This document shows, piece by piece, positions 8,074-22,592 of a stretch of DNA of 64,000 bases. Each line of letters starts with the position of its first letter. The first letter of the stretch is position 1. The translations under genes and the position numbers were made by a program. The stretch is taken from positions 496,001-560,000 of the forward strand of contig JACPUT010000006.1 in assembly GCA_016192145.1 (NCBI GenBank), in the 5' to 3' direction. The stretch is from Acidobacteriota bacterium (lineage in GTDB: Bacteria; Acidobacteriota; Holophagae; Holophagales; Holophagaceae). The notes beneath the pieces were generated by a model. The model was not told the DNA's origin, did not search any database, and saw nothing but the letters and a program-made list of their open reading frames with translations.

Positions 8074-9234
<1,161 letters not shown>

Positions 9235-9265
9235 CCCTTCCAGGCCTGGTCCTGCGGAGGATCCC

Positions 9266-9295
9266 TTGATTCTCCCCCGCGAAAGCCGGTAGGCT
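9266..9295 (+). promoter_or_regulatory. Candidate promoter of the threonine operon
   Basis: TTGATT (9266-9271) and TAGGCT (9290-9295) are separated by 18 nt. Transcription would begin near 9302, giving a leader of about 58 nt before the leader-peptide ATG at 9360. Found by inspection only. Confidence 0.4.
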
Positions 9296-9359
9296 TCCAG
9301 CCATGTCGATTCAGGCGCGCCTCCGCATCGGGGCCCGGGTGATCCCGGGGAGCCCCGCC

Positions 9360-9425
9360 ATGCCCGCGCTGAACACGACTACGACGACCACCATTACCGG
9401 TGCCCACCGGATGGGGTCGCTCTAG
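9360..9425 (+). CDS. thrL: Threonine operon leader peptide
   Basis: A 21-residue open reading frame, MPALNTTTTTTITGAHRMGSL, containing six consecutive Thr codons, one Ile and another Thr (9375-9398). This closely parallels the E. coli threonine leader in design and length. ATG 9360 is preceded by GGGGAG with a 7-nt spacer; an in-frame ATG at 9303 would give 40 residues but has no good ribosome binding site. The stop at 9425 is 24 nt before a strong terminator, and thrB-thrC follow. The function is regulatory: ribosome stalling at the Thr codons when charged tRNA-Thr is scarce. The peptide has no role of its own. Too short for standard gene calling, so likely to be missed in annotation. Confidence 0.88.
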   Translation: MPALNTTTTTTITGAHRMGSL

Positions 9426-9480
9426 GCGCACGCACTTTCAACGCCCACGGCCCCGCACCCGCGGGGCCTTTTTCGTTTTG
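9386..9480 (+). promoter_or_regulatory. Threonine attenuator (pause hairpin, antiterminator, terminator)
   Basis: Three mutually exclusive structures can be read. (1) The pause hairpin: GACC (9386-9389) with GGTC (9415-9418), CCAT (9391-9394) with ATGG (9411-9414), and CCGGT (9397-9401) with ACCGG (9406-9410); it overlaps the Thr codons. (2) The antiterminator: GGGGTCG (9413-9419) with CGGCCCC (9448-9454), seven pairs including one G-U. (3) The terminator: GGCCCCGC (9449-9456) with GCGGGGCC (9461-9468), loop ACCC, then TTTTTCGTTTT. A ribosome stalled on the Thr codons masks the 5' side of (1), which frees 9413-9419 to form (2) and so blocks (3). This is the classical attenuation layout for threonine biosynthesis. 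Confidence 0.85.
9449..9479 (+). terminator. Intrinsic terminator of the thr attenuator
   Basis: An 8-bp GC stem (9449-9456 with 9461-9468) and TTTTTCGTTTT tail lie just ahead of the thrB ATG at 9489. Its position between the leader peptide and the first structural gene marks it as conditional. Confidence 0.9.
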
Positions 9481-9488
9481 GAGTCACC

Positions 9489-10505
9489 ATGGCCTGTCAC
9501 ACCCATCCCGCCTACCTCGGCCCCGAGCCCCGCCCCACGGACCTGCGCCCGGTGCGCGGGCTCGTGCCGCCTGCCCGGGGGCCCATCGTCCGGGCCTTCG
9601 CCCCCGCCAGTGTCGGCAACGTCATCGCAGGCTTCGACGTGCTCGGCGCCTCCTTGAGACCCCTGGAGGGTCCGCCCCTGGGGGATCTCGTGGAGGTCTC
9701 CGAAGGCGCGGGGCTCCGGCTGCGGCTGGAAGGCCCCGGGGCGCATCAGCTCACCGGTGAGCTGGAGGACAACCTCGTGCTCCACGCCGCGCGGGCCTTC
9801 GCCCGGGCCTGGGGGCGGGAGCTTCCGCAGGTGAGGTTCCGCCTTTGGAAGGGACTGCCCGTGGGCAGCGGCCTGGGGGGAAGCGCGGCTTCGGTGGCCG
9901 CCACCCTGGTGGCCTTGAACGGCCTTCTGGGCCGTCCCCTGTCCATGTCCCAGATGCTTCGGGCGGCGGGGGAAGCGGAGGCCCAGGCCAGCGGTGCGCC
10001 CCACTTGGACAATGTGGCTCCCGCCCTCTTCGGGGGCCTGCGCCTCGTGGATCCCGAGGGCCGTGCGCGGCGCCTGCCCTTCCCCGGGCAGTGGCGCTTC
10101 GTGATGGCGAGCCCCGACCTGAGCCTCAGCACCCGGGACGCCCGGGCCGCGCTGCCCCAGACCATGGCCCTGGGCCTGGCCGTGGAACACGCACGCAACC
10201 TCGCGGCCCTGATCGATCGGCTCCACCGCAAGCGGGACGTGCGCGGGCTCATGCGGGACCTCCTCGCGGAGCCGCACCGCGCCGCCCTCGTGCCGGGGTT
10301 CCGGGCGGTGCAGTCCGCCGCGCTGGAAGCGGGCGCCATCGGTTGCAGCCTCAGTGGCGCGGGACCGGCCTGCTTCGCGCTGACCGAACCCGGCGAGGCC
10401 CGGGCCGTGGGAGCGGCCATGGCCCGCGCCTGGGCGGAAGAAGGGGTGAAGTGCGTCGTCCGCGTCTGCGAGTTGGACCCCCAGGGTGCGCGGGTGGCGG
10501 CATGA
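9489..10505 (+). CDS. thrB: Homoserine kinase
   Basis: A 338-residue GHMP-family kinase that phosphorylates L-homoserine with ATP in the threonine pathway. The entry FAPASVGNVIAGFDVLG (about residue 37) is the GHMP start motif. The ATP-binding PxxxGLGSSAA loop appears as PVGSGLGGSAASVAA near residue 125, and the C-terminal GCSLSGAGPACFAL near residue 280 completes the family pattern. About 35 N-terminal residues precede the conserved start. It follows the attenuator by 10 nt, and the ThrC start codon lies 72 nt past its stop. It is expected to be expressed only when the leader terminator is bypassed. Confidence 0.95.
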   Translation: MACHTHPAYLGPEPRPTDLRPVRGLVPPARGPIVRAFAPASVGNVIAGFDVLGASLRPLEGPPLGDLVEVSEGAGLRLRLEGPGAHQLTGELEDNLVLHAARAFARAWGRELPQVRFRLWKGLPVGSGLGGSAASVAATLVALNGLLGRPLSMSQMLRAAGEAEAQASGAPHLDNVAPALFGGLRLVDPEGRARRLPFPGQWRFVMASPDLSLSTRDARAALPQTMALGLAVEHARNLAALIDRLHRKRDVRGLMRDLLAEPHRAALVPGFRAVQSAALEAGAIGCSLSGAGPACFALTEPGEARAVGAAMARAWAEEGVKCVVRVCELDPQGARVAA

Positions 10506-10576: not shown

Positions 10577-11851
10577 ATGAGCATGTGGATGAGCCTTCGC
10601 GATCCATCCCTTCGGGCCCCTTTCCGGGAAGCGGTGCTCAGCAACTTCGCGCCGGATGGCAACCTCTGGATGCCCGCGGAGGTGGCGCCCTGGCCCGATG
10701 TGAAGGCGCTGCTGGCGCTTCCGTGGCGGGCCCGGAACCAGGTCATCCTCGGCCGCCTGCTGGGGGAGGATCTGCCCCGGGAGTGGGCCCGGGCCCTGGA
10801 TCTCTACCTGCCCCTGGCCGCGGTGGAAAAGGGTCGCTGGGCCTTCGAGCTGTGGCACGGGCCGACCTTCGCGTTCAAGGATGTGGGGGCTCGCTTCCTG
10901 GCGGCCTGTCTCGAGTCCTACGCGGAGGGGCCCCGGATGGTGCTCACGGCCACCAGCGGGGATACGGGGGCCGCGGTGGCGGCCGCCTGCCATGGGCGTC
11001 CCGGGTTGCAGGTGGCGGTGCTCTACCCGGAGGGGCGGGTGAGTCCGCTGCAGGCCCGGCAGCTGGCCCTCGGGGGCAATGTCCGCGCCTATGCGGTCGC
11101 GGGTGATTTCGATGCCTGCCAATCGCTGGTGAAAGCCTGCTTCAGGGATGGGGAGCTGTCCTCGGAATTGGGGCTCGTGAGCGCCAACTCCATCAATCCC
11201 GCCCGCTGGCTGCCCCAGAGCCTCTACTTCTTCGAGCTGGTGCATCGGCTGCTCCGGGCGGGCGAGGCCCGACCGCCACTGATCGCCGTGCCCAGCGGCA
11301 ACTTCGGCAACCTTGCGGCGGGCCTTCTGGCCCGGCGCTGGGGCCTGCCCGTGGCGGGGTTCGTGGCCGCCACGAACGCGAACCGCACCGTGCCCGACTT
11401 CCTGTCCTCGGGGCGCTACGAAGCGCGCCCCAGCCTGCCCACCTTGAGCAGCGCCATGGACGTGGGGGATCCCAGCAACTGGCCCCGAGCGCAGGCCCTG
11501 TTGGGGCCGGGTGACCCTCCCCTGCAAGCGGGTTGGGCCTCGGAGTCGGAAACGGCGACGGAGCTTGGCCGCCTCTGGGGAGGGGGCTACGCGGCGGATC
11601 CCCATTCGGCGGTAGCCAGCGCGGTGCTGCGGCGATTCGGGGGCAGGGAGGTGCCCGCCGTCTTCCTGGCAACGGCCCACCCTGCGAAATTCCAGGAGTC
11701 CCTGGAACCGGTGCTGGGGCGGGCGATCAACCGGCCACCCCGTCTGGAGGAGGTGGCCAGGCGGCCGTTGGAGGTCCGTCCCCTGGCGGCGGATCTGGAA
11801 GTGCTCAAGGCCGAGCTTCGAAGCCTTGCGGCGCTGGCCATTGGAGCCTAG
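10577..11851 (+). CDS. thrC: Threonine synthase
   Basis: A 424-residue PLP enzyme converting O-phosphohomoserine to threonine. The PLP lysine lies in GPTFAFKDVGARF (about residue 100), and TATSGDTGAAVA and VPSGNFGNLAAG are the phosphate- and cofactor-binding loops of the E. coli-type enzyme. ALGGNVRAYAVAGDFDACQ and NSINPARWLPQ are also typical. I start at ATG 10577, with AGGAGGT 6 nt upstream. An in-frame ATG at 10502 overlapping the thrB stop would add 25 low-complexity residues. Its 3' end is 8 nt from the convergent GGDEF gene, with no visible terminator between them. Confidence 0.95.
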   Translation: MSMWMSLRDPSLRAPFREAVLSNFAPDGNLWMPAEVAPWPDVKALLALPWRARNQVILGRLLGEDLPREWARALDLYLPLAAVEKGRWAFELWHGPTFAFKDVGARFLAACLESYAEGPRMVLTATSGDTGAAVAAACHGRPGLQVAVLYPEGRVSPLQARQLALGGNVRAYAVAGDFDACQSLVKACFRDGELSSELGLVSANSINPARWLPQSLYFFELVHRLLRAGEARPPLIAVPSGNFGNLAAGLLARRWGLPVAGFVAATNANRTVPDFLSSGRYEARPSLPTLSSAMDVGDPSNWPRAQALLGPGDPPLQAGWASESETATELGRLWGGGYAADPHSAVASAVLRRFGGREVPAVFLATAHPAKFQESLEPVLGRAINRPPRLEEVARRPLEVRPLAADLEVLKAELRSLAALAIGA

Positions 11852-22115: not shown

Positions 22116-22592
22116 CTAGTCGATGGCGACGGCCTTGATGTAGGCGTTGCTCGCGGCCGTAACCGTGGTGTTCGTGACGGTGCTCTTGAAGATGGGGGTG
22201 ATGATGACAGCGGGGTAGGTGCGTCCCGTTGCAGGGTCGGTGTAAGAGGGGTTTGCGGTGAGGTACACGACACCAAGGGTGGACCCGGCGGCGCCTGCCG
22301 TGTAGCCCAGGCCTGCGGGGGCATAGGGGTTCTTGGCGTTCTTGAAATTGGAGAGGAGGAGAGTCTTGGTAACGACGGAGGTGGCCGTGGGCTGGGCCCC
22401 GGTCTGCTCACGGATGTCGTCGGCCACGCGGGCGAGTTCACCGGCGATGGAGGCCCCATTGTCCTGGGTGGCCTTGGCCTTGGCCTTCTCGCGCTGGCCG
22501 AGCAGGGCGGGGATGGCGATGGCGCTGATGATGCCGATGATGGCGAGCACCAACAGCAACTCGATGAGGGTGAAGCCCTTTTGATTCTTCAT
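22116..22592 (-). CDS. pilA: Type IV pilin (second pilin), sigma-54-type promoter
   Basis: A 158-residue pilin precursor with a six-residue leader and a textbook cleavage site, MKNQKG|FTLIELLLVLAIIGIISAIAIP, Glu5 included. The rest is Ala/Thr-rich, with few aromatics and no cysteine pair. ATG 22592 has AAAGGAG about 7 nt upstream. The gene stands alone with its own terminator, and a good sigma-54 promoter lies about 40-50 nt ahead of the start codon. This is the usual arrangement for a major PilA under PilR control. It is longer than the truncated pilins of Geobacter. I use the symbol pilA as the likelier major subunit, which is an inference. Confidence 0.85.
   Translation of the reverse strand: MKNQKGFTLIELLLVLAIIGIISAIAIPALLGQREKAKAKATQDNGASIAGELARVADDIREQTGAQPTATSVVTKTLLLSNFKNAKNPYAPAGLGYTAGAAGSTLGVVYLTANPSYTDPATGRTYPAVIITPIFKSTVTNTTVTAASNAYIKAVAID

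Follow-up and report, generated by a model that had tools for sequence, protein, structure and literature searches.

A candidate ribosome-mediated threonine attenuator ahead of thrB-thrC, conserved across a family of Acidobacteriota and undetected by the Rfam Thr_leader model

Genes and sequence elements upstream of thrB-thrC

The window, i.e. the whole stretch of 64,000 nucleotides analysed here (G000:C7:496001-560000), comes from the 3.80-Mb genome of a member of the Acidobacteriota, in which no 16S gene was found. On its plus strand, the gap between dnaJ (ending at 9234) and thrB (starting at 9489), which lie on the same strand, is occupied by a short leader ORF, an antiterminator and an intrinsic terminator, the whole putative switch spanning 9266-9488. 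The genes that would be controlled are thrB (homoserine kinase, 338 aa, 9489-10505) and thrC (threonine synthase, 424 aa, 10577-11851). The initial annotation, made from the DNA alone, had placed this pair directly behind the leader, and NCBIfam models name both genes (TIGR00191, 217.7 bits against a cut-off of 168, and TIGR00260, 225.8 bits against a cut-off of 167).

In the form conserved among relatives, the leader ORF has a predicted leaderless start at ATG 9303 and comprises 40 codons followed by TAG at 9423-9425 (MSIQARLRIGARVIPGSPAMPALNTTTTTTITGAHRMGSL, 9303-9425); an internal in-frame ATG at 9360 opens a shorter ORF of 21 codons (9360-9425). The eight control codons at 9375-9398 (ACG ACT ACG ACG ACC ACC ATT ACC) encode seven Thr and one Ile, which bears out the Thr-rich leader of the initial annotation, although not its length of 21 codons. 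Within the final leader codons lies region 2, the 5' half of the putative antiterminator (GGGGTCG, 9413-9419), while region 3, its 3' half (CGGCCCC, 9448-9454), overlaps the 5' arm of the terminator. The latter (9449-9479) consists of a stem of eight GC pairs (9449-9456 with 9461-9468), an ACCC loop and the tail TTTTTCGTTTT. Ahead of the leader we place a putative -35 element (TTGATT, 9266-9271), an 18-nt spacer and a putative -10 element (TAGGCT, 9290-9295), which ends 7 nt 5' of ATG 9303, at a position kept in relatives. Neither a T-box nor a riboswitch was matched by Rfam above the gathering score in the entire window.

In the genome as a whole, runs of five ACN codons give 25 matches in 21 places, among them the window leader, and at none of the other 20 places was a short Thr-rich ORF found together with a terminator. 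A detector for such pairs returned one match on the plus strand of the window, namely the leader locus, and one elsewhere on the minus strand. The minus-strand match (approximately 22116-22268) comprises the end of a Thr-rich 50-codon frame followed by a terminator, and is probably the end of a longer gene for a Thr-rich protein.

Conservation of the leader in the family

A ThrB search matched 107 of 120 relatives, the weak matches including other kinases. In the family to which the genome belongs (f1), 55 genomes possess a real ThrB relative, and 54 of them are readable; in the remaining one, G007, thrB lies at the very end of its contig. All 54 have a Thr-containing leader and a terminator directly ahead of the thr operon, a count that is not one of independent cases, since the rows are kin to each other. 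The leader is followed by the aspartokinase part of thrA in 50 genomes and by thrB in four (the genome studied here, G016, G023 and G029). The last 20 leader codons contain on average 5.5 Thr codons: four to eight in fifty genomes, three in G010, G064 and G005, and a single one in G018, which belongs to the same genus as G010; Ile codons are also present in some leaders. Although Thr codons are few in these four leaders, the comparison of relatives proposed in the initial annotation revealed no loss of Thr codons in the 54 upstream regions, nor any loss of the antiterminator. The upstream neighbour of the leader varies (dnaJ in the window, a tRNA in G016, a metX-like gene in G001), which ties the terminator to the thr genes. 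An RNA model (R1) trained on 49 distinct rows found two further leaders on which it had not been trained, both in genus g3 (G003 and G013) and both directly upstream of a fused aspartokinase-homoserine dehydrogenase (AK-HSD) gene. Judged by this conservation, the comparison supports threonine attenuation as an ancestral trait of the family.

Eight family genomes of genus g4 (G014, G034, G042, G046, G049, G055, G058 and G072), several of them 96-100% complete, have no real ThrB relative, and homoserine dehydrogenase was found in none of the eight. This would fit a loss of the pathway in its entirety, and these organisms are likely threonine auxotrophs. G016 (L004), where the tRNA lies just upstream of the Thr leader, keeps the order leader-thrB-thrC, and no homoserine dehydrogenase was found in its 93% complete genome.

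Leader start and promoter

Nearly all relatives share an in-frame ATG located 34-48 codons (in most cases 37-44) ahead of the leader stop, whose equivalent in the window is ATG 9303, giving 40 residues. ATG 9360, from which the leader had originally been read, is internal to this frame and its position varies in the start-codon lists of relatives; the 21-codon start is therefore probably wrong. In 48 of the 54 family rows the conserved start is preceded by an exact TTGAC, a spacer of 16-18 nt and a -10 hexamer that ends 5-8 nt before the in-frame ATG, an arrangement that 20 shuffled sets showed in 1.9 rows on average and in 4 at most. Only three of these 48 rows have a Shine-Dalgarno-like word ahead of the ATG. 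The usual distance from a -10 element to the start of transcription would place that start at or beside the conserved ATG. With the -10 hexamer so close to the ATG, the message would thus be leaderless, and in the window the leader mRNA probably starts at ATG 9303 or only a few bases away. The window itself is outside the 48 rows: its two hexamers match the consensus at only 7 of 12 positions, and a generic promoter scan that required 9 of 12 reported no promoter at this site, so that the window promoter was assigned by its position in relatives.

Terminator, antiterminator and pause hairpin

The terminator at 9449-9468, with its T tract, is retained from the initial annotation: its eight GC pairs and T-rich tail give a fold with a z-score of -3.87 (none of 200 shuffled sequences was as good), and a terminator is present in all 54 readable family rows. 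The tail is T-rich in 52 of them and poor in the near-identical G065 and G059. As the family regions were located with the pattern CCCCGC...GCGGGG, the invariance of the terminator core is partly a selection effect, and because this core is invariant it carries little covariation. In a MAFFT alignment (A1) analysed with RNAalifold the terminator alone was recovered, with two of its eight pairs changed on both sides.

The complementarity of 9413-9419 to 9448-9454, on which the antiterminator had been proposed, indeed comprises seven pairs, one of them G-U, and its support is comparative. In the window alone, the antiterminator fold (-16.2 kcal/mol, z-score -0.77) is no better than chance, and 75% of the region-2 sequences taken from other genera match or surpass its own region 2 in pairing with the region 3 of the window. 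The antiterminator can fold in all 54 family rows when the 3' arm of the terminator is withheld, an outcome that the GC-rich sequence makes easy, and the pairing of regions 2 and 3 is better than that of shuffled region 2 by a z-score below -2 in only 22 of 46 distinct rows. These single-genome statistics are too weak, and the case for the antiterminator therefore rests on the relatives. Since its register shifts between genera, regions were swapped in a permutation test instead of being compared in an alignment. In each of seven genera the mean energy of the native pairing was lower than both swapped means, and with one genome taken per genus, over 40 picks, the permutation p-value had a median of 0.0019 (range 0.0004-0.013). 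Native regions 2 and 3 thus pair better than swapped partners do, so region 2 follows the changes in region 3, and the antiterminator pairing coevolves with the terminator (p about 0.002).

The pause hairpin across the Thr codons fared differently. The 67-nt piece of the window at 9360-9426 folds on its own with a z-score of -2.03 (8 of 200 shuffled sequences as good); in 84-nt segments of the 54 genomes, the pairing of regions 1 and 2 has a mean z-score of 0.15, with values below -1.5 in only two, i.e. a stability at the level of shuffled sequences. In 41 of the 54 genomes half or more of region 2 is paired with upstream sequence, yet with no greater stability than in the shuffles, and this element of the initial annotation is probably wrong.

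Proposed mechanism and competing explanations

The locus combines a short Thr-enriched leader ORF, a terminator before the first structural gene and an antiterminator that excludes it (weak in the window alone), and very probably a ribosome-mediated, i.e. translational, threonine attenuator governs thrB-thrC. According to this model, transcription would begin at ATG 9303 or no more than a few bases from it, so that the mRNA encoding the peptide would be nearly leaderless. A shortage of charged tRNA-Thr would stall the ribosome on the Thr codons at 9375-9398; region 2 (9413-9419), left uncovered, could then pair with region 3 (9448-9454), which would block the terminator and let RNA polymerase continue into thrB-thrC. 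With ample threonine, the ribosome would reach the stop codon at 9423-9425 and cover region 2, and the terminator at 9449-9468 would form. We infer that read-through depends on threonine, and likewise any contribution of isoleucine.

The hairpin at 9449-9468 might instead be merely the terminator of dnaJ, with the Thr-rich ORF there by chance. The dnaJ gene does lie upstream on the same strand, and the sole other terminator-like site between it and the hairpin, at 9248-9263, is weak; this explanation is nevertheless hardly credible, given that the pair of leader and terminator stands before the thr genes in all 54 readable genomes, with other upstream neighbours, and is missing at all 20 other Thr runs of the genome. 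Alternatively, the leader could act chiefly at the level of translation, through coupling to thrB or reinitiation there, and not through transcription termination, a proposal to which the merely 63 nt between the leader stop and the thrB start lend some appeal. We regard it as quite unlikely, as a strong conserved terminator with a T tract intervenes and the antiterminator pairing coevolves. Attenuation by a translating ribosome remains the preferred reading of the locus.

A split operon and a SAM riboswitch

The initial annotation had also pointed out that thrB-thrC would be controlled here without thrA. This is supported, and the missing thrA appears to be the result of a secondary split: G001, a genome of the same genus, has the order SAM riboswitch, metX-like gene, Thr leader, aspartokinase, HSD, thrB and thrC (riboswitch at L077 4477-4583, minus strand). 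In the genome studied here, contig 1 carries a SAM riboswitch (RF00162) with a terminator (L163 1974-2101, minus strand; L128, G000:C1), followed by a metY-type gene, a metX-like gene, aspartokinase, HSD and asd; this aspartokinase-HSD operon has no Thr leader, and the only Thr leader found ahead of these genes precedes thrB-thrC on contig 7. The name metX-like is tentative, as none of these proteins reaches the NCBIfam cut-offs. Aspartokinase begins within the final part of the metX-like gene, and gene spacing suggests that the split-off AK-HSD genes are co-transcribed. The ancestral thrA-thrB-thrC operon is thus split here, and the shared trunk lies behind the SAM switch; with aspartokinase and HSD behind metY-metX and the riboswitch, the Thr switch would govern the threonine-only branch alone.

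The thrB gene of the window has approximately 33 extra residues (9489-9587) ahead of the conserved APAS motif, and the thrB genes of G016, G023 and G029, which also directly follow the leader, have extensions of similar length that are unrelated in sequence. Possibly, the N-terminal extension is a scar of thrA loss behind an old ribosome-binding site.

A second candidate attenuator before ilvD or ilvB

The R1 model also picked up leaders of another kind, enriched in Ile, Val and Leu codons, which share the terminator of the Thr leaders and stand ahead of ilvD or ilvB, in 12 family genomes: the one studied here (G000), G003, G005, G027, G036, G037, G039, G040, G041, G044, G045 and G047. The names of the downstream genes were tested with HMMs for G000, G003, G027 and G036, and assigned by sequence similarity in the others. 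In the genome studied here, the branched-chain leader MAFGTSTSALRADFVGRTAHGVPSAVEFLVPVAPVAISIPSLIVIIPRTRAGT is followed by a GCCCCGC terminator and by ilvD (L243, G000:C6, match 167250-167349, minus strand); its ATG lies 6 nt past TAGACT, which is preceded by TTGACT at a distance of 16 nt, and in most of the 12 genomes the leader start closely follows a promoter-like element. Rfam gave no match on the four ilvD/ilvB leader loci scanned. A leader with His codons and a terminator was found at none of the 13 loci with His-codon runs fetched in the same genome, two CAY matches at Thr-run places (L170 and L179) having been scanned for Thr only.

It seems somewhat probable that the whole family uses ribosome-mediated attenuators with leaderless leaders of approximately 40 codons in at least two pathways, those of threonine and of the branched-chain amino acids, invisible to Rfam and outside the catalogued groups, and that in the genome studied here the aspartate pathway is divided between a SAM switch (trunk and methionine) and a threonine switch (thrB-thrC).

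Leaders outside the family

The strict detector finds 32 of 50 family regions. Among 20 upstream regions of genomes that belong to other families in the phylum, it returned one leader, in G101, a number that is a minimum given that sensitivity. One more region of this kind, the 21st, from G098 (L115), was negative. The G101 leader (MSTGGATTITTTKRIMRIRKAGGGVAPVAW) has its ATG 9 nt past TATACT. Another leader (MNALGSTRTLTTTPDFSSGCGPA) was found in L032 (297-510), from a metagenome-assembled genome (MAG) titled Candidatus Eisenbacteria, with its ATG 6 nt past TACGGT and a terminator before AK-HSD-thrB. The ThrB encoded in L032 is 58% identical to that of the window, i.e. closer than most family members, either because the operon was exchanged laterally or because the bin is mislabelled. 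A Thr leader is absent from two further MAG loci, one titled Deltaproteobacteria and the other Proteobacteria.

With E<=0.001 the R1 model matched nine genomes outside the family; no Thr leader was found at the five loci read (L220-L224), a reading that left out L225, L226, L227 and L229. As R1 misses both G101 and the L032 genome, the spread beyond the family is underestimated. A phylum-wide pattern search was dropped, since its best three-codon variant recovered 17 and its best looser variant 28 of the 54 known leaders.

Transfer or convergence

Two histories may be considered for the family leader, and on the sequence comparisons available we judge them about equally likely. The thrA-thrB-thrC operon and its leader could share ancestry with proteobacterial thrLABC, the leader having drifted past detection by Rfam, and such a transfer has close to an even chance. 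The proteins point in this direction: the ThrB of the window is 38.6% identical to that of E. coli (200 bits, while the members of other families of the phylum that were compared reach at most 135), ThrC is 43% identical (301 bits, against 67 for the one other-family member aligned), and the HSD of the same genome is 51% identical (322 bits, against at most 274) and has a ThrA-type bifunctional model as its best match. Most relatives checked have one long AK-HSD frame and the same order as E. coli, leader-thrA-thrB-thrC, and a similar operon with a Thr leader occurs in the MAG labelled Candidatus Eisenbacteria. In a 32-row ThrB tree E. coli nests within the clade of the family; however, it forms a long and compositionally odd branch, and neither monophyly of the family (p-AU 0.0507) nor a clade of the family with the Eisenbacteria, Delta and Proteo MAGs but without E. 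coli (p-AU 0.0735) is rejected. The leader itself has approximately 40 codons against 21 in E. coli and a different start context, and the scans with Rfam Thr_leader found no resemblance to the E. coli sequence.

The same absence of an Rfam match would be expected if the leader arose independently in the family and again in G101, Thr codons and a terminator being easy to evolve, a course of events to which we give somewhat less than an even chance. An attenuator of the same build precedes ilvD or ilvB in the same genomes, so this lineage would seem to build such leaders readily, and G101, a member of another family of the same phylum, has a leader while its ThrB is distant from that of the window (31% identity). 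What independent origin leaves to be explained is the gene order and the similarity of the proteins to proteobacterial thrABC.

Comparison with known attenuators

In the literature searched we found no report of a threonine attenuator in Acidobacteriota or in Geothrix/Holophaga, and a prediction in Vitreschak 2004 or Lopatovskaya 2010 is possible. According to PMC3766115, attenuators of this kind originated in gammaproteobacteria and were transferred very few times, and PMC2965389 states that hardly any of the attenuators predicted in Acidobacteria have a function. Scanning with the Rfam Thr_leader family (RF00506, gathering score 55 bits), as suggested in the initial annotation, gave a negative answer: the window has no match, 9200-9560 has none even at E<=10, and none of the 77 family genomes has a match above the cut-off, the sub-threshold matches in nine of them all lying away from thr loci, while E. 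coli K-12, the positive control, scored 122.1 bits. A Thr attenuator that is family-wide and missed by Rfam implies that family-specific models undercount the mechanism. The leaders of the family provide a natural series for the study of attenuator divergence, and the genome studied here is a clean case of regulatory repartition following an operon split.

The candidate attenuator thus works, as we read it, like the thr attenuator of E. coli, but it is not a member of Rfam Thr_leader and its features are unusual. E. coli thrL likewise encodes a Thr-rich leader peptide and has alternative antiterminator and terminator structures ahead of the threonine operon (thrL-thrA-thrB-thrC). Its leader has 21 codons, however, whereas those of the family have approximately 40, another start context and a predicted leaderless start; a conserved pause hairpin is not supported in the family, and in the genome studied here only thrB-thrC would be controlled. 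A leaderless leader peptide is shared by the trpL attenuator of Sinorhizobium meliloti, whose transcript, according to PMC7298713, has the ATG of the leader peptide as its first bases, as predicted for the family leaders; that system differs in its Trp codons, its target trpE(G), its 14-aa leader and its host, a member of Alphaproteobacteria. The ilvBNC leader of Corynebacterium, as described in PMC10272879, is an example of uORF-dependent attenuation outside Proteobacteria and has branched-chain codons like the ilvD/ilvB leaders of the family, but it belongs to Actinobacteria and to another operon; that paper also cites a study on how a leader peptide is formed when no ribosome binding site is present. 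Finally, the SAM riboswitch (RF00162) on the AK-HSD operon resembles the Thr switch in exerting attenuation upstream of the same pathway, both in the genome studied here and in G001, but it is a metabolite-binding aptamer that acts independently of translation, and in the genome studied here the genes behind it are those no longer under the Thr switch.
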